A DNA stretch of 29,946 nt from positions 1 to 29,946 of the IMG/VR virus record IMGVR_UViG_3300031841_000961. One strand, given 5' to 3'. This stretch comes from a virus. Within the stretch, counting starts at the first letter, position 1. Each line of letters opens with the position of its first letter. Positions 117 to 9,763 of the stretch are shown one piece after another. The notes beneath the pieces were generated by a model. It was not told the DNA's origin. It worked only from the letters and a program-made list of their open reading frames with translations, and did no database searches. The translations under genes were made by a program, and so were the position numbers.

Positions 117-2459
117 TTAAGAAAGTAGATACTTGCTACGCAATACTGCGGAAACATCTAAGTCTCCAAGTTCCGGCACGGTTGGCAGTTCTACTTTCGG
201 GTTCATGTTGATTTGCTCCATTCGGAACTCGGTCAGGAGATCAACATTAAATGTTTTTGTGTAAGCTCTTCGGACAATTCCGTGTATTTGTTTTGCGTTA
301 CAAGCGTGTGTCACAAAGCAGTCATGTATGGTTGCTAAGTCAAAGTCAACTTGATTCGCTACTTGATGTACAATACATGCGTCCAGACTGTGGATAAAGT
401 TAGCAGTCACTGCGTTGCCTTGTCCCTTCGGATCAATCTTATCAGCTAATTCAGTTGCTTGAATAGTAACACTTAGGTTTTGAAACACACTCTCTACATC
501 TATCTTTTTATATTTACGGTAGCTTTGTATTACTTTAAATCCAGTCGGTGTTGTCCATGTAATAGCTGAGTCATAACCTAAAGCTCGTACACTCTCTCTT
601 AAAAAGTTCATTACTTTATTAACAGGACGACATACTTTGTTAGCTAATCGGTTAACTATCCTACTGATCCAGATAACAGCAGCTAACATCTCACCTGTAC
701 TAGTCCACGGATGATTAATTCCTATACTCTTAAATAAATCCTGTACTAAATTATAGTGGGTAGCACCGTACGGTCTGTTCATCACTGCTAACTTAGCAAG
801 CTTCCTACTAAACCCATACTTCATCCAGCTTTGTGCTAGTGTACCACCGTCTTTCTTCAGCTCATCGTACACCATATCACTGAACTCAGTGTACATATCA
901 TTAGCCTTGTCTTCTTCCACCAGGTTGCACATGCGTCCAGTATTTTTATCTCTCAACAACAGACTTAATATCTGCATACCATTGTTACTACAATCTTGAC
1001 GGACAGGTAAGCGTGATACATATCCGTACCCCTCCTCTGTAAATTGTTTGTACTCTAAACAAAACCGCAGGAAACAGAACGGATCGGATGCTTCAGTCCA
1101 CCAATCAGTACCGTGTGGATCATTCGCAGCTTCAAGTATAAAGTCTTTGCGTTTCTCTACCCACTCCAGTCTTTCCTCTCGTGTCCCCTTCACTCCCCAC
1201 ATGTTCGCACCGTGTACAAGTACCGCTTCCATGTCCTCTTCATCTACCACTTGCTGACCGTTGTGAAAGTCTAACAAACTCTTAGCTAAGTCAGTACCCT
1301 GTGGATGTAAGTAGTAAGGTAAAGCGTAAACCCTGCCCCTGTAATCACAACGATACGGAAAGTACATCTTGTCCCAGCTTTTATATATCTTAGCTAGGTG
1401 TAGAATCCTACATGTCTGATACCTCTTACTATTATTAGCATCGTTTGCTTGTTTAATATCTTTCTGTTTTAATTTCCAAGCTCGTAGCTCGTGCGGACAG
1501 TCACCGGTGTATCTAGGTTGTTCAGGTATCGTACCAAAGTTAGGAATGTTCCCAACAACTCGCTCGTTCTCCCAACACTTCAACACGATGTCTAACATGT
1601 CTGTATTGATCTGCCACTCGACCTGTTGTAACTTATTACAAGCACACATAGCGTGGTGATAACTCTTTTCGTAGTCTTCAAACCATTCGACAGGTTTACC
1701 AGTGAAGAACTTTTGTGGAGGCATGTGCTTGACACTGTACCCACCACCTATCAAACCGTACCAGTCAACAGGACGGTCAGGTAATGCCATCTTAAATACA
1801 CGAGTCGTCTCCTTCCATGAATCAAAGCGTTGTACCCAATCTTTAAACTGCTCGGTTGGTACGACTATGCGTTCCGGTTTGTGTCCCTTCTGTCCACCTG
1901 TGTTAAATCCAATCTCAAACAACCCAGTCTCTATCCTTATCTCTTCCAGTAACCACGCACCTAATGCAGTCTTACATTTACTATCCCACAGTGTAAACCG
2001 TTCCTCCTCATAGTGATAAAACTGTTTCAACTTCATAGCTTTCGACCGATCATCCAGTGCTAACAGGTCAAGCTTGTTCGGATGCATAGTCTCTAACGCT
2101 TTGTCCCACCGTGCTTGGTTCTCAAATGCTTTACCTATCTTGTAAGCCATCCTACCAACAGGTAAGTTATACTGGAGGTTATCAAGGAATGTTTGTATGG
2201 CTAACACGCTTACCTGATACGGGCACATGTCTAATATGAAGGTAAGAAACAACGGTGTTGTGTGTTCAGTGTTGCCTCCAAAGGTGTACATGAAATCCTC
2301 TACCCTCTTACCCAATCTAGGTGACATTACTCTAAGCATTCTCTTCGCAGATTCCGTCTTACTAGACTCACCCTCTGCTCGTAGCTTGGCTTGTCGGTTA
2401 CGGTACTGTGTCCGTCCCCACTCACGCATCCGCCAAACATGTCCTCGTGTATCACTCAT
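117..2459 (-). CDS. T7-like single-subunit DNA-directed RNA polymerase
   Basis: This 780-residue protein is the phage RNA polymerase that transcribes middle and late genes. T7 RNAP has 883 residues; the shortfall is mainly N-terminal. Visible core motifs: the DYRGRVYALPYYLHPQG segment (T7 DWRGRVYAVSMFNPQG); catalytic Asp489 in RQDCSNNGMQ (T7 D537); Lys556 and Tyr564 in KLAVMNRPYGAT (T7 K631 and Y639, same 8-residue spacing); and Asp713 in IHDCFVTH (T7 D812 in HDSFGT). All catalytic residues are present. The segment matching the T7 promoter-specificity loop (after TPTGFKVIQSYRKY) is very different, so promoter preference should differ from T7. The ATG overlaps the stop of the preceding small gene as ATGA, making it the last gene of the early operon. 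Confidence 0.97.
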   Translation of the reverse strand: MSDTRGHVWRMREWGRTQYRNRQAKLRAEGESSKTESAKRMLRVMSPRLGKRVEDFMYTFGGNTEHTTPLFLTFILDMCPYQVSVLAIQTFLDNLQYNLPVGRMAYKIGKAFENQARWDKALETMHPNKLDLLALDDRSKAMKLKQFYHYEEERFTLWDSKCKTALGAWLLEEIRIETGLFEIGFNTGGQKGHKPERIVVPTEQFKDWVQRFDSWKETTRVFKMALPDRPVDWYGLIGGGYSVKHMPPQKFFTGKPVEWFEDYEKSYHHAMCACNKLQQVEWQINTDMLDIVLKCWENERVVGNIPNFGTIPEQPRYTGDCPHELRAWKLKQKDIKQANDANNSKRYQTCRILHLAKIYKSWDKMYFPYRCDYRGRVYALPYYLHPQGTDLAKSLLDFHNGQQVVDEEDMEAVLVHGANMWGVKGTREERLEWVEKRKDFILEAANDPHGTDWWTEASDPFCFLRFCLEYKQFTEEGYGYVSRLPVRQDCSNNGMQILSLLLRDKNTGRMCNLVEEDKANDMYTEFSDMVYDELKKDGGTLAQSWMKYGFSRKLAKLAVMNRPYGATHYNLVQDLFKSIGINHPWTSTGEMLAAVIWISRIVNRLANKVCRPVNKVMNFLRESVRALGYDSAITWTTPTGFKVIQSYRKYKKIDVESVFQNLSVTIQATELADKIDPKGQGNAVTANFIHSLDACIVHQVANQVDFDLATIHDCFVTHACNAKQIHGIVRRAYTKTFNVDLLTEFRMEQINMNPKVELPTVPELGDLDVSAVLRSKYLLS

Positions 2460-2695
2460 GTATTGTACAGGTTATTAAACCAATCCTTTGTCATTATTCT
2501 TTGCTTGTTCGTGCGATAAGCTATTAACTTACCGTCCTCGTCACGGACATACTCACCGTTCTTATCCCGCTTGAATCCAGTGATCTCTGTGTTACTCCAG
2601 AAGTGACGACATCCCTCATGCAATGCCTTCTGATCGATCTTAGTATCCCACGGAATATCAGTTAGTTCTGTCTCGTAATACTCTTTGTAGTTCAT
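2456..2695 (-). CDS. Hypothetical early protein, 79 aa
   Basis: A charged 79-residue protein with no family I recognise. The middle contains a KRDKNGEYVRDEDGKLIAYR segment that reads like a beta hairpin, followed by a basic, aromatic tail ending FNNLYNT. Its stop overlaps the RNA polymerase start codon (ATGA), so the two are translationally coupled and this gene belongs to the early operon. A GAGAG just before the ATG is a possible weak ribosome site. Existence is well supported by the overlap; function is unknown. Confidence 0.8.
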   Translation of the reverse strand: MNYKEYYETELTDIPWDTKIDQKALHEGCRHFWSNTEITGFKRDKNGEYVRDEDGKLIAYRTNKQRIMTKDWFNNLYNT

Positions 2696-2733
2696 CTCTC
2701 AGTATGTCAGCTTCAGCTTCCCAGAAGATACCT

Positions 2734-2907
2734 TTATTCTTCTCTTGGGTCATCGATGTTGTAGTAGAACAGGTACTCTTCAACTTCTTCCTCGGTTTTA
2801 AGTACGCTAATGTTCTCCAGATGATACTCTCTTTCTCGTCTTTCTTTTTCTGCTTCATAATAATGATCTTCGTAAGGTTCGGTTAACCATGTGTCGTAGC
2901 TACTCAT
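2734..2907 (-). CDS. Hypothetical acidic early protein, 57 aa
   Basis: A 57-residue protein beginning MSSYDTWLTEPYEDHYYEAE and ending NIDDPREE, very rich in Glu, Tyr and Arg, predicted helical in the middle (EKERREREYHLENI). Its ATG overlaps the end of the previous gene by 8 bases (ATGAGTAG), typical of this operon. A longer open frame on the same strand (2658-2858, starting MKQKKKDEK) covers the same DNA, but it lacks this coupling and looks like a shadow. Function unknown; possibly a small inhibitor-type early protein, which is only an inference from size, charge and place. Confidence 0.75.
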   Translation of the reverse strand: MSSYDTWLTEPYEDHYYEAEKERREREYHLENISVLKTEEEVEEYLFYYNIDDPREE

Positions 2908-3058
2908 CTTCTAATTTTTCAAGGTGTTCTTTGTATAGTTGAAGGGACAGGTAAAGGTCAAGCCATCTTCCGTCCAACTCTCGGTTCATGTCATTATTAA
3001 ACATGTGGAACATAAGTTCCTCGGTCATGTCTATTGGGTCAAGTAATATCTCTTTCAT
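2900..3058 (-). CDS. Hypothetical early protein, 52 aa
   Basis: A 52-residue acidic, helical protein starting MKEILLDPIDMTEEL and ending EHLEKLEDE. The start codon overlaps the stop of the upstream 25-residue membrane microprotein (ATGA), and its own end overlaps the next gene's start by 8 bases. One GGACAGGTA repeat copy (2945-2953, plus strand) lies inside it and is read as Tyr-Leu-Ser. No family recognised; existence is supported by the tight coupling on both sides. Confidence 0.75.
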   Translation of the reverse strand: MKEILLDPIDMTEELMFHMFNNDMNRELDGRWLDLYLSLQLYKEHLEKLEDE

Positions 3059-3132
3059 AGTTCGTCATACATCCAAGCTAAGATTAAAAGCCCAACAATT
3101 ATAAAGCATCCAAATCCAAGCGTTGTTATCAT
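3055..3132 (-). CDS. Single-pass membrane microprotein, 25 aa
   Basis: A 25-residue peptide, MITTLGFGCFIIVGLLILAW followed by MYDEL. It is almost entirely one transmembrane helix with a short acidic tail. It has one of the best ribosome sites in the early region, AAGGAG five bases before the ATG, and its stop overlaps the next start codon as ATGA. Those two features, not length, argue that it is translated. A membrane role such as altering host envelope or superinfection behaviour would be speculation. Confidence 0.72.
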   Translation of the reverse strand: MITTLGFGCFIIVGLLILAWMYDEL

Positions 3133-3137
3133 ATATT

Positions 3138-3143
3138 CTCCTT
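3138..3143 (-). promoter_or_regulatory. Strong ribosome binding site of the 25-aa membrane microprotein
   Basis: The minus strand reads AAGGAG, five bases before the ATG at 3132. It is notable because many neighbouring early genes have weak or no Shine-Dalgarno sequence, and it supports a gene that length cut-offs would miss. Confidence 0.7.
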
Positions 3144-3149
3144 CGGTTA

Positions 3150-3500
3150 TCATGCTTGTTGGTAAGTGTTCCAAGATTCCTGTAAAGATTCATCCTCGTC
3201 CCATACTTTCTTACCTTGTGCGATGATCTCTTCAATAATAAATGGGTGTGTGTGCTTACCTAAAACTTCGTACTCTTCCCTAGTAATCTCGGTTACATTA
3301 TCAACGGAAACAATACGATCATTCGACCAAGCTTCTCCGTTGTCCTCGTCAATCCAATCAATACTGAATTGCCAAGATAAGAAATAGTTCTTCCAGTTAT
3401 CACCCCAGTTCTCTTTCGGTTGAGTTGAACGGACAGGTATAAGATCCGTATATTCATTGAATCCGTCTTGTGTGTGGTCGGTTATTAAGTAGTAGTTCAT
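3150..3500 (-). CDS. Hypothetical early protein, 116 aa
   Basis: An acidic, tryptophan-rich protein of unknown family. I prefer the start MNYYLITDHTQ at 3500; a start four residues earlier (MNNTMNYY, 3512) is also open. Neither has a clear Shine-Dalgarno sequence; both follow a leader with ACT repeats (3520-3536). The centre (KNYFLSWQFSIDWIDEDNGE) looks like beta strands. One GGACAGGTA copy (3431-3439) lies inside it, read as Ile-Pro-Val-Arg. It sits between other small early genes on the same strand. Confidence 0.8.
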   Translation of the reverse strand: MNYYLITDHTQDGFNEYTDLIPVRSTQPKENWGDNWKNYFLSWQFSIDWIDEDNGEAWSNDRIVSVDNVTEITREEYEVLGKHTHPFIIEEIIAQGKKVWDEDESLQESWNTYQQA

Positions 3501-3540
3501 AGTATTATTCATTATTCATTAGTAGTAGTAGTAGTTCTAT

Positions 3541-3726
3541 TTAGTAGTCGGTTGATTTAATTACTTTGCAGATGTTGCAGGAGTAACAATTATCATTAAT
3601 GATTTGATTGTCATACGCTTCCTGTGCTTCTGCTAGTGTTTCGTAATTGATGTAACGATCTTGTAGGTTACCTTTTATATCTCTAAAGATATAAGCTAGG
3701 ATGTAAGTTTCTGTAGTAGTATTCAT
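3541..3726 (-). CDS. Hypothetical early protein, 61 aa, with C-terminal CysXXCysXXCys
   Basis: A 61-residue protein beginning MNTTTETYILAYIF and ending with a CYSCNIC cluster before KVIKSTDY. The body (DRYINYETLAEAQEAYDNQI) looks like one strand-helix unit. Three cysteines in seven residues could bind a metal or form disulfides, but there is no complete zinc ligand set within this chain. The start codon overlaps the stop of the upstream gene (TAATG). Family not recognised. Confidence 0.78.
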   Translation of the reverse strand: MNTTTETYILAYIFRDIKGNLQDRYINYETLAEAQEAYDNQIINDNCYSCNICKVIKSTDY

Positions 3727-3932
3727 TATTTTATTGGGTTGTTAGTTGTTTGTCTTATCATTCCTTCAATCGTACTCGGTTGCCTAGATAACAACTCGTC
3801 TTGTAGTTCAATCAATCGGTCACGGACAGTTACATTATCAGTTAATTTTTCAGCAACGGACAGGTAATGATCGATCAAAGTCTGGATAGATATATCGTCA
3901 AGCGTGGAAAGATCAGATGGATTAGTTGTCAT
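3726..3932 (-). CDS. Hypothetical early helical protein, 68 aa
   Basis: A 68-residue, mostly helical protein, MTTNPSDLSTLDD onward, with an amphipathic stretch DRLIELQDELLSRQ. A TTG-initiated version four residues longer (from 3944) is open, but the ATG at 3932 overlaps the upstream stop by 11 bases and is the simpler choice. A GGACAGGTA copy (3858-3866) is read here as Tyr-Leu-Ser. It ends with a TAATG overlap onto the next gene. Function unknown. Confidence 0.75.
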   Translation of the reverse strand: MTTNPSDLSTLDDISIQTLIDHYLSVAEKLTDNVTVRDRLIELQDELLSRQPSTIEGMIRQTTNNPIK

Positions 3933-4146
3933 CTTCGGTTTCAAGAATATCCTTTCTCATGTTCTCAACAGTATAGTCACCATTGGCTAAGTCCATAAAG
4001 GTTTCAACAATTCCAGAGTAAGACCAGTCAGGATCACCTAACCACTCTATGATTTGTTCTTTTGTAAAGCGGGTAGGTAAGTCTTCAGTAGGTTCACCAT
4101 TGTTAGCGTTGTCTAAATCAGGGTTAATATCTTTTAGTAGGTTCAT
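3922..4146 (-). CDS. Hypothetical acidic early protein, 74 aa
   Basis: A very acidic 74-residue protein, MNLLKDINPDLDNANNGEPT onward, with a central RFTKEQIIEWLGDPDWSYSG segment and an acidic end (LETEDDN). Small, strongly acidic early proteins are common in T7-like phages, and some mimic DNA to block host enzymes; that role is only a possibility here. The stop overlaps the next gene's ATG by 11 bases. No clear Shine-Dalgarno sequence. Confidence 0.78.
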   Translation of the reverse strand: MNLLKDINPDLDNANNGEPTEDLPTRFTKEQIIEWLGDPDWSYSGIVETFMDLANGDYTVENMRKDILETEDDN

Positions 4147-4169
4147 TATTCGGTTTTCTTTCTATTTGT

Positions 4170-4451
4170 TTATTTGTTTTCTATTAAACATTGTGGACAG
4201 GTACTTTGTGCTTCCATTTTAGGAGAAGTCAATCCGCAATCTTTGCAGACAGGTACTTTCTTTAATTCTTTTAACACTTGCTTTGCACATTCTATAAACT
4301 CAGCTTTGCTGGAGCATGTACCATTGAAAGTCGGATAGTCACGGCACTTCCAAACAAGTTGCGGACAGGTACGAAAACGCTCGCTTTCGATGTAGTAAAA
4401 GAAAGCAACTTTGTTTCCGTTGTGGTCGGTTAAGTATTCGGTAACGCTCAC
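4170..4451 (-). CDS. Early zinc-ribbon protein, 93 aa
   Basis: The C-terminus has a Cys-X2-Cys-X13-Cys-X2-Cys pattern (CKDCG ... CPQC), a typical zinc ribbon. The N-terminal half contains an aromatic, strand-like segment (KVAFFYYIESERF) and further cysteines. Zinc ribbons of this type often bind nucleic acid or act as protein contacts; no specific function can be assigned. The start is GTG, supported by GGAGG ten bases upstream. The 4195-4203, 4248-4255 and 4363-4371 copies of the GACAGGTA motif all fall inside this gene, in two reading frames. Confidence 0.8.
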   Translation of the reverse strand: MSVTEYLTDHNGNKVAFFYYIESERFRTCPQLVWKCRDYPTFNGTCSSKAEFIECAKQVLKELKKVPVCKDCGLTSPKMEAQSTCPQCLIENK

Positions 4452-4453
4452 TC

Positions 4454-4600
4454 TTAAATATCCTCCGTTACATCGCCATCTTCATCATTGGTACGCCATC
4501 GCTTAACGATAACCTCGCCATCGATAGAATCGTCAAAGTAGTAAATATAATTGCCGATGGTAACATAAATAGAGTTGTCGCTAGGTTGTTGTATTTTCAT
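4454..4600 (-). CDS. Hypothetical early protein, 48 aa
   Basis: A 48-residue protein starting MKIQQPSDNSIYVTIGNYIY and ending EDGDVTEDI, probably a small beta structure with an acidic tail. It fills the gap between two neighbouring early genes almost exactly and ends three bases before the next start codon (GTG at 4451). Below usual length limits, but the packing and a protein-like sequence support it. Function unknown. Confidence 0.7.
   Translation of the reverse strand: MKIQQPSDNSIYVTIGNYIYYFDDSIDGEVIVKRWRTNDEDGDVTEDI
4462..4466 (-). promoter_or_regulatory. Ribosome binding site supporting a GTG start
   Basis: The minus strand reads GGAGG, ten bases before the GTG at 4451. It sits within the last codons of the upstream 48-residue gene and decides the start of the zinc-ribbon gene, which has no early ATG in frame. 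Confidence 0.65.
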
Positions 4601-4619
4601 GTCGCTACGCTCCAACGCA

Positions 4620-4808
4620 TTATCTCTCTACGCTCGCAGAATGCTTTTGTTCATATGGTTTTACTGAACCATCTTCTATCAATGAATTTAACTCGCCCAG
4701 TTCTTCTAAGCGGTCTCTCATGTTTGCGTTTTCAAGTGCGTAATTCAAGATGATATCTTTCATTTTAGATATGTGAGATTCAAGTGCTGTTTTCTGTTCT
4801 TTATTCAT
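4620..4808 (-). CDS. Hypothetical helical early protein, 62 aa
   Basis: A 62-residue, probably coiled, helical protein starting MNKEQKTALESHISKMKDII, with DRLEELGELNSLIED in the middle and a polar tail. No family recognised. The ATG directly follows TTACCTGACC, a one-mismatch copy of the repeated motif (GGTCAGGTAA on the plus strand, 4809-4818), with no normal Shine-Dalgarno sequence. This is the one place where the motif sits in a translation start region. Confidence 0.75.
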   Translation of the reverse strand: MNKEQKTALESHISKMKDIILNYALENANMRDRLEELGELNSLIEDGSVKPYEQKHSASVER

Positions 4809-4829
4809 GGTCAGGTAAGGTAATTAAGG

Positions 4830-5138
4830 TTAGTAAGATAAGCCTTTATGCTCTAATATATCTCTCAATCGAATAAGTACTTTACCAAACTCCAAAACAT
4901 CTTTGCTTGTAATGAATTGCTCAAAAGCAAAGTGCCTTAAGGACTGATAACAAAAGCAATCTTCATTTGCACCCATTGGACTAGCTCTAAATTGCCAATC
5001 GTCTGGCACACCTTCATCTGTTTCAAAGGTAAGATAGTCACAGATAGCAAACAGCCATTGCATACAATTGCCCCAAGGGTCACCGCTGTCTGTTAGTTTA
5101 TATTCGTGCTTAAGTGTTTCGTTCATTGGATAGTTCAT
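4830..5138 (-). CDS. Hypothetical early protein, 102 aa
   Basis: A protein of about 102 residues starting MNYPMNETLKHEYKLT. A longer version from a TTG at 5189 is open, but that stretch overlaps the 28-residue membrane gene in another frame, so I choose the ATG at 5138. The sequence is rich in aromatic residues and cysteine (WGNCMQWLFAICDY, CFCYQSLRHFAFEQF), mixed helical. No family recognised. The leader CTTACTATCAAA resembles that of the gene starting at 5556. Confidence 0.78.
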   Translation of the reverse strand: MNYPMNETLKHEYKLTDSGDPWGNCMQWLFAICDYLTFETDEGVPDDWQFRASPMGANEDCFCYQSLRHFAFEQFITSKDVLEFGKVLIRLRDILEHKGLSY

Positions 5139-5155
5139 TTTGATAGTAAGTAAGG

Positions 5156-5242
5156 TTAAGAAGTAAAGTAGATCAAAGCGAATAGCCAAAATGATCCAAA
5201 GATTAAGTTGATGATTAAGAGGTCAAGTAGTTTAGATTTCAT
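5156..5242 (-). CDS. Single-pass membrane microprotein, 28 aa
   Basis: A 28-residue peptide, MKSKLLDLLIINLIFGSFW onward, ending FALIYFTS. Two lysines precede a continuous hydrophobic helix, which suggests an N-inside membrane peptide. Its ATG overlaps the stop of the upstream gene (ATGA), and GGGGAG lies 11 bases upstream. The gap it fills would otherwise be empty in a tightly packed operon. Function unknown. Confidence 0.68.
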   Translation of the reverse strand: MKSKLLDLLIINLIFGSFWLFALIYFTS

Positions 5243-5556
5243 GATGTGAACATCTCCCCGTTTTGTGCTAAGATTTCAGCGTGATATTCTTCAGCTAGGT
5301 TTTGTGCTACTAAGTCTCTGACAAATTTAGTAAATGAATATCCAAACTGCTCCTTGTAATCATTAGAAGCTAACAAGCAAACAGCATAGTAAGCTTTAGG
5401 GGCTTTAGTCATGTCAAAGGAGTTGTTTTTTATCTTTCTTTGAAAGCTCTTTGCAATCGGCACAAGGAAGCGTCCGTAATAAGTGGAAGTGTGTTCAATC
5501 CATATTTGAAGCTCTCTGACTTCATGGCGTACTGATTCGATAGTTTCTTTATTCAT
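5239..5556 (-). CDS. Hypothetical early protein, 105 aa
   Basis: A helical 105-residue protein starting MNKETIESVRHEVRELQIW. The middle (KAPKAYYAVCLLASNDYKEQ) and the end (FVRDLVAQNLAEEYHAEIL) look like amphipathic helices. No family recognised with confidence. It follows the Gp88-like gene by about 30 bases, and its stop overlaps the 28-residue membrane gene (ATGA). The leader AACTATACTATCAA lacks a Shine-Dalgarno sequence. Confidence 0.8.
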   Translation of the reverse strand: MNKETIESVRHEVRELQIWIEHTSTYYGRFLVPIAKSFQRKIKNNSFDMTKAPKAYYAVCLLASNDYKEQFGYSFTKFVRDLVAQNLAEEYHAEILAQNGEMFTS

Positions 5557-5586
5557 TTGATAGTATAGTTTAATGATTTATTATTT

Positions 5587-6216
5587 TTAGTGTTTAGAGT
5601 AAGATACATTTGCAATTGATTTATCCCAACAAGCCCGACATTCAAGACATTTATTATTTTGTTTACTAGATGGGCAAGTGAAGTCAGATGAAGTCACAAC
5701 GGATGAAGTTTGAACTCCTAACCGCTTCGCAAGTTTGACGGGTGCAGGAAAATCAACCTTATGTGCTGACAATCTGACAATTAAGTTATCAGGCAAAGAG
5801 CCGTATTGATCGATATAATCCTCAACAATCTTGTACTCTCTTGTCGGTAACCAATGTTTAGTTTTAGGTGTAAGTTTGCAAACCTCTACAATCTGCCTGA
5901 GGTGAGAAATATCTTTCAAATCGCCCGAATCATGCCAACGAAAATAATCCTTTGATTGATTAGATATTAACAAAGCCATTGAATTGACCCATCTTACATC
6001 TGCTAAGGATTGATAGCGTTTCTCTAATGCTTGTTGCACATTGCCAAATCTATACATCCCTTTTAATGCATAGCATCCATGACAAACACTGCCTTTTACC
6101 TTCGCAAGTTTGCTACCTACATTACATCTAGATGCTGGTATTGAATAAGCTTTGCCCGGCATTTTAGAAGGATTAGATAAACCGCCCGTGATGGAATTTG
6201 CTTCTTTTATCTTCAT
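5587..6216 (-). CDS. Gp88-like cysteine-rich phage protein
   Basis: This 209-residue protein resembles the phage 'gene product 88' family (known from mycobacteriophages and others; function not established to my knowledge). Features seen: an N-terminal NPSKMPGKAYSIPASRC segment; CHGCYA (Cys45, Cys48) followed by LKGMYRF; the conserved FRWHDSGDL (residues 92-100); and a C-terminal cluster Cys181, Cys190, Cys193, Cys196 (CLECRAC). The Cys pairs and HDSGD resemble the Gp37/Gp68 group of possible iron-sulfur or radical-SAM-like proteins, so a metal or Fe-S cluster is plausible; this is inference. It is the largest early gene before the polymerase. The start overlaps the upstream stop as ATGA. Confidence 0.8.
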   Translation of the reverse strand: MKIKEANSITGGLSNPSKMPGKAYSIPASRCNVGSKLAKVKGSVCHGCYALKGMYRFGNVQQALEKRYQSLADVRWVNSMALLISNQSKDYFRWHDSGDLKDISHLRQIVEVCKLTPKTKHWLPTREYKIVEDYIDQYGSLPDNLIVRLSAHKVDFPAPVKLAKRLGVQTSSVVTSSDFTCPSSKQNNKCLECRACWDKSIANVSYSKH

Positions 6217-6407
6217 GATTTGATTTCGTCCTCGTTTACAATGTCCACAATGTTTACATAATCATTTGATGACTCAAGAACATCTTCAACAAGGGCAGGG
6301 CAATGCATATTCGAAAGAAGCTCGTGAACTTTATCTTGTGGGTCTTCCCCATCATTAAGTACAAAGTAGAGAGTCTTGAAGTCGATTGAGTATAATTTTG
6401 ATTTCAT
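6213..6407 (-). CDS. Hypothetical acidic early protein, 64 aa
   Basis: A 64-residue acidic protein starting MKSKLYSIDFKTLYFVLNDG and ending IVDIVNEDEIKS. Its stop overlaps the Gp88-like gene's ATG, so the two are probably co-translated and may act together. The leader is ACTATTACT with no Shine-Dalgarno sequence. No family recognised. Confidence 0.78.
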   Translation of the reverse strand: MKSKLYSIDFKTLYFVLNDGEDPQDKVHELLSNMHCPALVEDVLESSNDYVNIVDIVNEDEIKS

Positions 6408-6443
6408 AGTAATAGTAGTTTTTGTTTTCTTTGGTTTATTGGT

Positions 6444-6686
6444 TTATAAATGATCGCTAACATTGAATTGCTTAATAACATCAATTCTTTGATCATCAGT
6501 AATCGGAGCTCTGTCCACTTCTTTGAGGAATTGCTTGAAAACTTTGTAAGCAGTTTGTGATTTGTGCTTTAATATTTCTTTTCTTATTTCCCGCTCAGCA
6601 ATTGCTTTGTTTAAAAGGTATTGGCAGTCGGCAACACGCTTGCCTAGGTGCTCTTCAAATATTTCCCAGTTAATTGTATTTTTCAT
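6444..6686 (-). CDS. Hypothetical helical protein, 80 aa; first gene of the early operon
   Basis: An 80-residue charged helical protein starting MKNTINWEIFEEHLGKRVAD, with helix-forming REIRKEILKHKSQTAYKVF and EVDRAPITDDQR. It is the first gene after about 680 bases of non-coding, repeat-rich DNA, so it holds the position of T7 gene 0.3, where anti-restriction or host-takeover proteins sit. I see no similarity to Ocr. The leader is ACTACTACTATT, without a Shine-Dalgarno sequence. Confidence 0.8.
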   Translation of the reverse strand: MKNTINWEIFEEHLGKRVADCQYLLNKAIAEREIRKEILKHKSQTAYKVFKQFLKEVDRAPITDDQRIDVIKQFNVSDHL

Positions 6687-7000
6687 AATAGTAGTAGTTT
6701 CATTATTGAATTTGCTCGAATGCTCGAAGCCCGCACTTCCTAACTTTAGAAAGCTAGTTGAATTTATAACATATCTGTCAAGCCCCTTTAAACACTGGTA
6801 TTGCGAGCCATAGAATGCTGTAAGATGTTGAATAAGTACTACTTACAAAACTTGAAAAAAACTTTAAATTATTTTTGATGATTTGCTGTAAAGTGCTGTT
6901 ATTCAATCAATAAAAAAGTTATTCACAATTTCTAATATACTAAGCTAAAAATCAATCTCGCATCAATTTGTTTTGTAAATAGCTAACTTGGAATAGTTTA

Positions 7001-7067
7001 TGAGAATAAGATTTCATTTGAATTGCTTATTGAGAATGAATCTCATAATTGAGACAAAGTTGAGAAT
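7001..7067. repeat. Three TGAGAAT words at 30-bp spacing, one inside a palindrome
   Basis: TGAGAAT occurs at 7001, 7031 and 7061 on the plus strand, each 30 bp apart (roughly three helical turns). The middle copy is part of TGAGA-ATGAA-TCTCA (7031-7045), an inverted repeat with a 5-base spacer like the other operator-like sites. Confidence 0.5.
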
Positions 7068-7101
7068 GGAACATCGAAAGAGAAAAACACATACAAAGCC
7101 A

Positions 7102-7120
7102 AATGCAAACTACTTGCAAT
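7102..7120. repeat. Operator-like inverted repeat, copy 1
   Basis: The minus strand reads ATTGCAAGTAGTTTGCATT. It contains TGCAA-N5-TTGCA (7104-7118). A copy differing at only two central bases lies 46 bp away at 7148-7166. Dyad symmetry plus duplication is typical of a regulator binding site. Confidence 0.65.
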
Positions 7121-7147
7121 AACGGAACCAAGATTGATCGATATGTT

Positions 7148-7166
7148 AATGCAACTTACTTGCAAT
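7148..7166. repeat. Operator-like inverted repeat, copy 2
   Basis: The minus strand reads ATTGCAAGTAAGTTGCATT, with TGCAA-N5-TTGCA at 7150-7164. It matches copy 1 at 17 of 19 positions, and the two differing bases are inside the spacer. A half-site ATGCAAAC appears on the minus strand near 7211-7218. Confidence 0.65.
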
Positions 7167-7270
7167 AAGGAAAAAAAAATAAGCGATAAAACAGCGAAAG
7201 TTTGCCGTTGTTTGCATAAGTCGTTGATAATCAACAAAAGTAATTAGACATAATATATATAGTGCGAAGT

Positions 7271-7312
7271 ATACCCCCTGTCCTATAATAATCTTACGGG
7301 TATGCGGGGGTA
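7271..7312. repeat. G/C-rich hairpin with two alternative pairings
   Basis: In otherwise AT-rich DNA, ATACCCCC (7271-7278) can pair either with GGGTAT (7298-7303) or, as TACCCCC, with GGGGGTA (7306-7312). There is no T-run after it on either strand, so it is not a normal terminator. It may mark a replication, packaging or regulatory structure near the genome ends. Confidence 0.5.
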
Positions 7313-7366
7313 ATTAAACGCACGCGTATATAGCGTAAGCCTCTCAGATTTTTCTATCGAAACTTT

Positions 7367-8003: not shown

Positions 8004-8084
8004 TTAGGTTTTAAGGATAGGTGTGTCTATAAATAGACCTGTAAATGTACTAACTACAACAGCACTTATTAAAGCTACATCCAT
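8004..8084 (-). CDS. Membrane microprotein after terminase, 26 aa (gp19.5 position)
   Basis: A 26-residue peptide, MDVALISAVVVSTFTGLFID followed by TPILKT, forming one hydrophobic helix. Its ATG lies inside the last codons of the large terminase gene, a 10-base overlap in another frame. In T7 the small membrane protein gp19.5 directly follows the large terminase, so position and type agree, though no sequence relation can be shown at this length. Rated moderate because short hydrophobic frames can arise by chance. Confidence 0.5.
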   Translation of the reverse strand: MDVALISAVVVSTFTGLFIDTPILKT

Positions 8085-9763
8085 AACTGAGCACTAACTT
8101 TGTTATTAATCTTATGAAAGCTATCAGTAAACTTTGTTAACTCTTCTTCTAACAGTTCTTGTTGTCTATCAATCATCGATTGGTTAACATCAGCAGCCAT
8201 CTGTGCTGTCCAATAACCAACAGCTATTGATAACGCATCAAGACGGTCATCATGTACTAAGCTACCTCTATCTCTTGTTATTCTAGATAACTGATACATA
8301 AGCATGTACCTGGTTTGTTGTTCAATAGGATAGCTAAGAGCAGACCTGTAGTCATCGTTGATGACGGAAGGATCGATGATTAGACGGTGACTATTGAGGA
8401 CTGGTTCCAGAGTATCTACTATACGAAGTTCTTTCTGTTTGTTATGTCTTACTTCTTCTATTGTTACCGGATAGGTTGTTCTAAACAGAGGCTTTATCAG
8501 CTCCATAAACATACCGTCACCAAAGTTAGACTCTATAACTACCTTATTAACTTTGTTATCTTTTGCTATAGCTACCAGTTCTTTAAGAGTCTTTTCATCG
8601 TACCCACCTTTTATACCACCAGCAGCTGGAACAAACAGTTGACCGTTTAGCATCTTAACAACAGCGTACCCAGTTTCATCCTTACCACGACCAGACGGGT
8701 CAATAGATAGGACAGAACCGCTGTACGGTATCATATCCCCAACAGTGTTAGCAGGTCTTCTGTATCGATCTCCAGCTAGTCCTACATTAGGTAGTTCTCT
8801 ATCACAGTTATCAGGATCACTAGACCACACGATCTTTTCAGGAGCTACATCAGTATCAACATCTGTTATAACTAGATCGTTAATCTTTAGTGGGTATCTA
8901 TCAGCGTCCGATAGCTTAGGATTAAGCATGAACTGTAGAGCGTACCCGGTCCGACCGTACGACATCTTTCTTTCTTCCAGGTCTAAGTCAGTGAACCGTA
9001 GAGGTTCTGTAGAAGTACCAACAGTCTCAGGAGATATGTTATCTGCTATAAGGGGTGCTAGATCGCCTCCGTAGTTATTTATAGCTTCTTCCTCACCAGG
9101 ATACTCAGACGACCATATACGGCTCTTGTAGCCCCGCTCACGCAGCTTGTTGTATATACTGTCCTCACATTGTGGAGTACCAAGAAAGATGATACGGGAG
9201 GAGTCTAGTGGTTTTATGATAGCGTCAAACTCTTTTACTTGTTCATCCAGCTTATCTCTCATTCCTTGCGTAGCACTGTTGTTAGCTACCTCTACATCGT
9301 CTGCTACGATTATATCAGCACGAGAACCTGTTAGCTGGGATGATATACCAAGTGACTTAACAGAGGGAGCGTGCGAAGCTGGAGCAGGTCCTACATCAAA
9401 TGCTATCTTACTGAATCGTTGGTTCTCTGATGGCTTTAGATGACTAAGTATAGGTATCTCTTGAATGATACGCAGGGTAAAAGTAGAGAAGTCATCTGAT
9501 CTATTCTTAGATGCTGATACAACAAGTATGTTCTTGGATGGGTTCAGTAGCAACTGATGTACTACAAAAGCACTTGTTATCCACGACTTACCTACACCAC
9601 GGAACGCCATGATAACAGACCGCTTAGGACCGTTTTGCAGGTACTCAGCGATATCGTATTGTAGCGTTGTTGGGTCTGGTAGATTAAGGTGTTTCCAAAC
9701 CAGGAATAGAAAGTTTCTAAAGTCCCGTAGCTTGGGCGGTATCTCTTGGTGTTTCTTCTTCAA
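8075..9763 (-). CDS. Terminase large subunit
   Basis: A 562-residue packaging ATPase/nuclease (T7 gp19 has 586). It pumps DNA into the prohead through the portal and cuts the concatemer. Seen: Walker A AFRGVGKS (residues 53-60); Walker B IIVADD (151-156) followed by VEV; an FLGTPQ coupling motif (193-198); and an RNase-H-type nuclease with Asp355 (SIDPSGRGKDE), Glu411 (VVIESNFGDG) and Asp505/506/509 (DDRLDALSIAV). All key residues are present. The frame has no ATG before residue 52; the only good start is TTG at 9763, preceded closely by an in-frame TGA, giving a 47-base overlap with the small subunit gene. Confidence 0.96.
   Translation of the reverse strand: MKKKHQEIPPKLRDFRNFLFLVWKHLNLPDPTTLQYDIAEYLQNGPKRSVIMAFRGVGKSWITSAFVVHQLLLNPSKNILVVSASKNRSDDFSTFTLRIIQEIPILSHLKPSENQRFSKIAFDVGPAPASHAPSVKSLGISSQLTGSRADIIVADDVEVANNSATQGMRDKLDEQVKEFDAIIKPLDSSRIIFLGTPQCEDSIYNKLRERGYKSRIWSSEYPGEEEAINNYGGDLAPLIADNISPETVGTSTEPLRFTDLDLEERKMSYGRTGYALQFMLNPKLSDADRYPLKINDLVITDVDTDVAPEKIVWSSDPDNCDRELPNVGLAGDRYRRPANTVGDMIPYSGSVLSIDPSGRGKDETGYAVVKMLNGQLFVPAAGGIKGGYDEKTLKELVAIAKDNKVNKVVIESNFGDGMFMELIKPLFRTTYPVTIEEVRHNKQKELRIVDTLEPVLNSHRLIIDPSVINDDYRSALSYPIEQQTRYMLMYQLSRITRDRGSLVHDDRLDALSIAVGYWTAQMAADVNQSMIDRQQELLEEELTKFTDSFHKINNKVSAQLWM

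Follow-up and report, generated by a model that had tools for sequence, protein, structure and literature searches.

Which regulator reads two perfect palindromes that stand in the noncoding leader of a T7-like phage? The window analysed here, the whole 29,946-bp stretch of record IMGVR_UViG_3300031841_000961, belongs to a T7-like podovirus whose major genes all lie on the minus strand; they include a virion gene set of capsid assembly, major head, tail, internal virion and fibre proteins. The terminase and the RNA polymerase are ~64% and ~30% identical, respectively, to the closest proteins of isolate or fosmid phages, distances at which no host is known for any close relative. The closest fosmid phage, S45-C18, is a member of uvMED group G8, which includes a SAR11 phage; assigning a host via this group was rejected, as it yields no host for the present phages. 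The leader that carries the palindromes is flanked by the terminase large subunit gene (terL) and small early genes (Table 1). The early genes at 2456-6686 have no Shine-Dalgarno sequence; A-rich or (ACT)n leaders stand before them instead, for example upstream of 3512, 6407 and 6686, whereas some of the structural genes carry GGAGG. The early region also encodes a GP88-family protein (PF17338, phrog_1392; 5587-6216, minus strand), for which 93 relatives were found in related viral contigs.

Both palindromes are exact matches to TGCAA-N5-TTGCA, the only two in the window, and have the form of a palindromic dimer site of Fur-family length. The preliminary description had claimed two 19-bp dyads 46 bp apart with differences confined to the spacer, and their positions and sequences proved exact: the distance is 46 bp from start to start with a gap of 27 bp, and the two copies differ solely at the last two bases of the spacer. 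When two mismatches are allowed, the pattern occurs 12 times in the window compared to 16 expected; there is thus no enrichment, and the signal consists of the two perfect copies. The half-site proposed near position 7211 turned out to be part of another element, GTTGATTATCAACGACTTATGCAAAC, which relatives read as ..GACTTATGTAACAAAT or ..GAGTTATGAAACAAAT, so that the TGCAA there is incidental. The dyads had also been placed ahead of the first gene; they do lie in the leader before the early genes, but not immediately so, since ~416 nt separate the nearer dyad from the start of the first annotatable early gene. Inspection of the dyads revealed no convincing core promoter, and a scan with the sigma-70 consensus stayed at chance level.

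Table 1. Features of the leader and its surroundings, in window coordinates
Feature	Position	Strand	Remarks
T7-type single-subunit RNA polymerase	117..2459	-	
First early ORF, 80 aa	6444..6686	-	Without family
Noncoding leader, 680 bp	6687..7366	-	From the last late-side ORF to the first early gene
Exchangeable short-repeat module CATTCTCAACTTTGTCTCAATTATGAGATTCATTCTCAATAAGC	7025..7068	-	Other short-repeat types in relatives
Constant element TTTTTCTCTTTCGATGTTC	7069..7087	-	Fixed distance behind the slot-2 module
Dyad, slot 2 (on the early-gene side), candidate Zur-type operator ATTGCAAGTAGTTTGCATT	7102..7120	-	Exact TGCAA-N5-TTGCA; minus-strand read 7120-7102, extended read TTATTGCAAGTAGTTTGCATTT (7122-7101); kept in the slot of relatives; genome matches beside FUR/CobW/ZnuA
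Dyad, slot 1 (upstream) ATTGCAAGTAAGTTGCATT	7148..7166	-	Exact TGCAA-N5-TTGCA; minus-strand read 7166-7148; T-tract before it
Conserved IHF-like element GTTGATTATCAACGACTTATG	7215..7235	-	Includes the start of the non-conserved "half-site"
dif-like element TTCGCACTATATATATTATGTCTAATTA	7241..7268	-	Either orientation among relatives
Conserved C-rich/G-rich hairpin ACCCCC..GGGGGT	7273..7311	-	
Terminase large subunit (T7-type)	8075..9763	-	Anchor for comparing relatives

Relatives were gathered by two scans of viral contigs, their terminases being mostly >=87% identical, and the resulting set of ~57, in which a few near-duplicates shifted by indels remain, shows that the dyad is conserved in the leader. 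The exact dyad occurs at 27 sites in 20 loci, all within the 1.1-kb region behind terL (62 kb of leader), and is absent from the other 454 kb; dinucleotide shuffles gave a mean of 0.08 dyads, compared to the 27 real ones. A position weight matrix of the dyad likewise found 45 matches in the leader zone against one in 725 kb elsewhere. The flanks have strongly diverged, and therefore the dyad itself is the conserved unit; the early genes, too, vary freely among genomes that share it. Most of the phage spacers start with GT, and some complete a full 7-1-7 palindrome, TGCAAGTNACTTGCA. The exact twin-dyad pattern had no match in viral contigs, and isolate phages gave none when searched by blastn with the leader. 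A global MAFFT alignment of the leaders was uninformative because the modules are mosaic.

Further analysis of cellular genomes, with one genome per species, revealed the context in which this motif normally stands. Among the listed matches of the extended pattern TTATTGCAANNNNNTTGCATTA, 90 of 118 are intergenic, and the flanking proteins (n=114) include FUR (27), CobW (8), ZnuA (7), CbiQ (6) and MerC (4), the CobW-type ones being CobW/ZigA-type GTPases; as the pattern contained phage-derived flanks and the counts come from the matches listed, they show context, not frequency. Also among the matches listed, 31 of the 142 ORFs starting <=300 bp from a site are FUR genes, compared to 22 of the 1139 remaining ORFs of the same loci. 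In 12 genomes picked for holding a match, WTGCAAN5TTGCAW occurs 36 times versus twice in the reversed control. In Verrucomicrobiota the site precedes CobW-type GTPase genes (L236, L287, L474, L205), and the marine Verrucomicrobiales MAG L310 has a site that matches all 22 bases of the upstream phage site, TTATTGCAAGTAAGTTGCATTA (7168-7147); the gene downstream of it has no Pfam family. The phage-like spacer GTNNN is rare in this phylum (2/388). Intergenic placement beside FUR, CobW, ZnuA and CbiQ genes is characteristic of a Zur box, and judged by this context the TGCAA-N5-TTGCA motif is very probably a Zur-type operator. Zur acts most commonly as a repressor, binding promoters as zinc-loaded dimers, and several promoters carry two Zur boxes (PMC6103462). 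A family of ~191-aa Verrucomicrobiales proteins without Pfam match was also noticed directly behind Zur-type boxes (L310:2220-2792, L275:6800-7375).

No FUR domain or Fur-family gene was detected in 19 related phage contigs, most of them incomplete and with not every small early ORF scanned singly, on which ground a phage-encoded Fur was rejected and the reader is probably a host regulator. The preliminary description had suggested that regulator operators open the early region and are read by a host regulator or by an early small protein. The host alternative gains from three sides, namely the Zur-type box in many bacterial genomes, the lack of a Fur-family protein in the related contigs, and the presence of a second host operator in the same slot of relatives.

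This second operator emerged from the comparison of leaders, which present two slots with exchangeable modules. At the place of the dyad, dyad-free relatives hold T2 (ATCAnnnnATCATGATGCGTTGAT), T3 (TTAGTGTATTT.CATGAATT.CTTG) or T4 (TTGATAATYGATTCTCATTAG), and TTTTCGCAAATC.ACAG is an alternative in the upstream slot; the window has the TGCAA dyad (T1) in both slots and no T2. The dyad types swap among relatives while the terminase stays >90% identical. T1 mostly lies either 16 or 6 bp from the constant element, distances that differ by one helical turn, and the gaps of the other modules are likewise nearly fixed, which is the pattern expected of an operator beside a promoter. The constant element is possibly the start of the transcribed leader. 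A T7-type phage RNA polymerase promoter was rejected as an identity for the dyads, since it needs repeated copies genome-wide and the window has two, both in the leader.

At <=2 mismatches, a search of 289 Verrucomicrobiota genomes for the T2 module listed 37 places spread over 23 genomes, with some sites counted on both strands, compared to none for the reversed control. Exact or <=2-mismatch sites precede S-methyl_trans, MTHFR and SAM synthetase genes (metH, metF, metK), the best ones being ~20 bp ahead of genes for methionine synthase, methylenetetrahydrofolate reductase or SAM synthetase, and the 24-mer of phages L495/L129 is identical over 24 bp to the metH operator of genome G140 (L443). 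Elsewhere T2 was found in 2/198 Bacteroidota and 4/190 Alphaproteobacteria genomes, all at two mismatches and close to chance. For Proteobacteria, SahR/SamR operators have been described as palindromes of 20 to 24 bp ahead of metH/metF/metK (PMC4239095), and T2 fits an operator of this methionine-regulator type. Its occurrence at metH, metF and metK in Verrucomicrobiota and its rarity in the other two groups make this phylum the likely host. Genomes G140 and G178, which hold the exact metH operator, contain no exact TGCAA dyad, which counts against this host, as does the rarity of the phage-like spacer in the phylum. The T4 module, Fur-like by eye, gave two genome matches at three mismatches versus one in the control, with neighbours that by eye are not iron genes; T3 gave three versus one at the same tolerance, and the searches tied no host regulon to T3 or T4.

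Several other leader elements accompany the slots. In the short-repeat block behind the constant element (7025-7068 in the window; L097, L199, L119, L147), the repeat unit switches between close relatives among TCTCA, TTTCA, GTTCA, GATCA, CTCAC and GTGAC, as if a DNA-binding specificity were being diversified. The dif-like element, present in the window and in relatives (L170, L203, L165, L147), has the form TTCGCAC-N-ATTATGTCTAAT, with GGTGTTCGCATAATATGTATTATGTCTAATTG on one strand of L170; it occurs in either orientation among close relatives although 17 related contigs yielded no tyrosine integrase, and is possibly a Xer site. The same lack of an integrase in these contigs led to the rejection of an integrase or attachment site as a reading of the dyads. 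A short way past the last late-side ORF, the hairpin ACCCCCGCATACCCGTAAG..AGGGGGT (7273-7311, minus strand) is strongly conserved; it may serve as a late terminator or belong to the concatemer junction.

Both operators recur beyond this group. At least 115 viral contigs contain the TGCAA operator, and 107 of the 118 places listed are intergenic. It spans several T7-like groups with terminases down to ~63% identity as well as unrelated phages; outside the T7 group, where a link to zinc genes was sought, no family was assigned to the nearest ORFs. In the non-T7-like phages L346, L363, L400 and L337, a fully palindromic box, TGCAAGTGACTTGCA, lies ~77 bp from a ~370-aa gene, and the same box stands ~10 bp before an ATG in the viral contigs L334, L348 and L414. 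T2 was found in 61 viral contigs, at intergenic places in 60 of them, and 30 carry T7-like proteins of this group.

Altogether, we propose, with a probability of about 0.65, that the twin dyads are host Zur-type operators held in exchangeable leader slots of a phage of Verrucomicrobiota, other members of the group carrying a SahR/SamR-type operator in the slot. In a zinc-replete cell, zinc-loaded host Zur would occupy both boxes and hold down initiation by the host RNA polymerase in the leader; upon zinc shortage, Zur would leave the DNA and the early genes would be released. The analysis shows where the dyads lie, that they are conserved, what the motif is by its genome context, and that modules swap; from there we infer Zur binding, the zinc response and the host, and the chances that Zur indeed represses transcription of the leader appear about even.

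The operators might instead act as decoys that titrate host repressors as the phage genome multiplies, derepressing zinc uptake or methionine/SAM synthesis for phage growth, so that no control of a phage promoter is needed. Such a role would agree with the recurrence, largely at intergenic places, of operators of two unrelated regulons in phages, with the finding that none of the 61 T2-bearing contigs has metH or metF, the host genes that T2 normally controls, and with the chance-level promoter scan at the dyads. However, there are merely one or two sites per genome, the near-fixed spacing to the constant element would be superfluous for titration, and in this group the sites always lie in the leader before the early genes, which together make a decoy unlikely. 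A Zur box by resemblance only, serving in fact as the operator of a phage-encoded DNA-binding protein, is still less probable: small unannotated early ORFs are present, and not each was scanned, but apart from the missing FUR domain, genomes that share the dyad have freely differing early genes, and its exchange for a second host operator of an unrelated kind would be hard to account for.

It is highly improbable that the dyads work as a hairpin in RNA, or in packaging or recombination, instead of as a transcription operator. Each dyad could form a 5-bp stem, a larger fold of both copies reaches a z of -2.7, and the region is close to where the ends of a T7-like genome are expected; however, an RNA element was rejected, as no Rfam family scored above threshold and the stem of each dyad is 5 bp only. 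The spacer changes are moreover non-compensating, dyad types swap at nearly constant terminase, and the match to chromosomal zinc-gene operators would be left unexplained.

Compared to known systems, a host Zur-type operator would be familiar in form and unusual in place. Like chromosomal Zur boxes (PMC6103462), the dyads are palindromic dimer sites with fur-type, cobW and znuA neighbours in genomes, and two boxes per promoter are known; unlike those, they lie upstream of early genes in a T7-like phage without integrase and with no recognised zinc gene adjacent. Similarly, the T2 of relatives is a 24-bp palindrome (ATC-10 nt-GAT) that in genomes precedes metH, metF and metK, as SahR/SamR operators do (PMC4239095), but in phages it sits in the early leader. 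The papers searched describe no phage with Zur boxes. In marine cyanophages, Pho boxes are read by host PhoB, which controls phage genes (PMC10976474), so that genes of a lytic phage come under a host nutrient regulator; there the regulator is a phosphate two-component system, whereas here putative Zur- and SahR/SamR-type operators, for zinc and methionine, form swappable cassettes before the early genes. By analogy, that study is both the closest precedent for Zur gating and the main warning against it, as boxes predicted for host regulators in phage genomes often failed to bind when tested (PMC10976474).

The leader occupies the same genome position as the T7 early promoter region, after the terminase and before the early genes and RNA polymerase. 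T7 has the constitutive early promoters A1, A2 and A3 at its left end, and lytic T7-like phages are thought to begin early transcription unconditionally; the T7 early promoter region is not known to carry host-repressor boxes, and very few phages of Verrucomicrobiota are known. The Zur-type dyads here, together with a methionine-regulator site in the same slot of relatives, suggest that these phages couple their first transcription to host nutrient status. More tentatively, a large group of T7-like phages of Verrucomicrobiota, and other phages, may carry swappable operators of host nutrient repressors (Zur, SahR/SamR-type and perhaps others) before the early region, conditioning early transcription and T7-style genome entry on the zinc or methionine state of the cell. 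If so, micronutrient state could gate or tune infection by T7-like phages, and the operators would double as a host label for phages recovered from metagenomes only, as the metH-type operator here points to Verrucomicrobiota.
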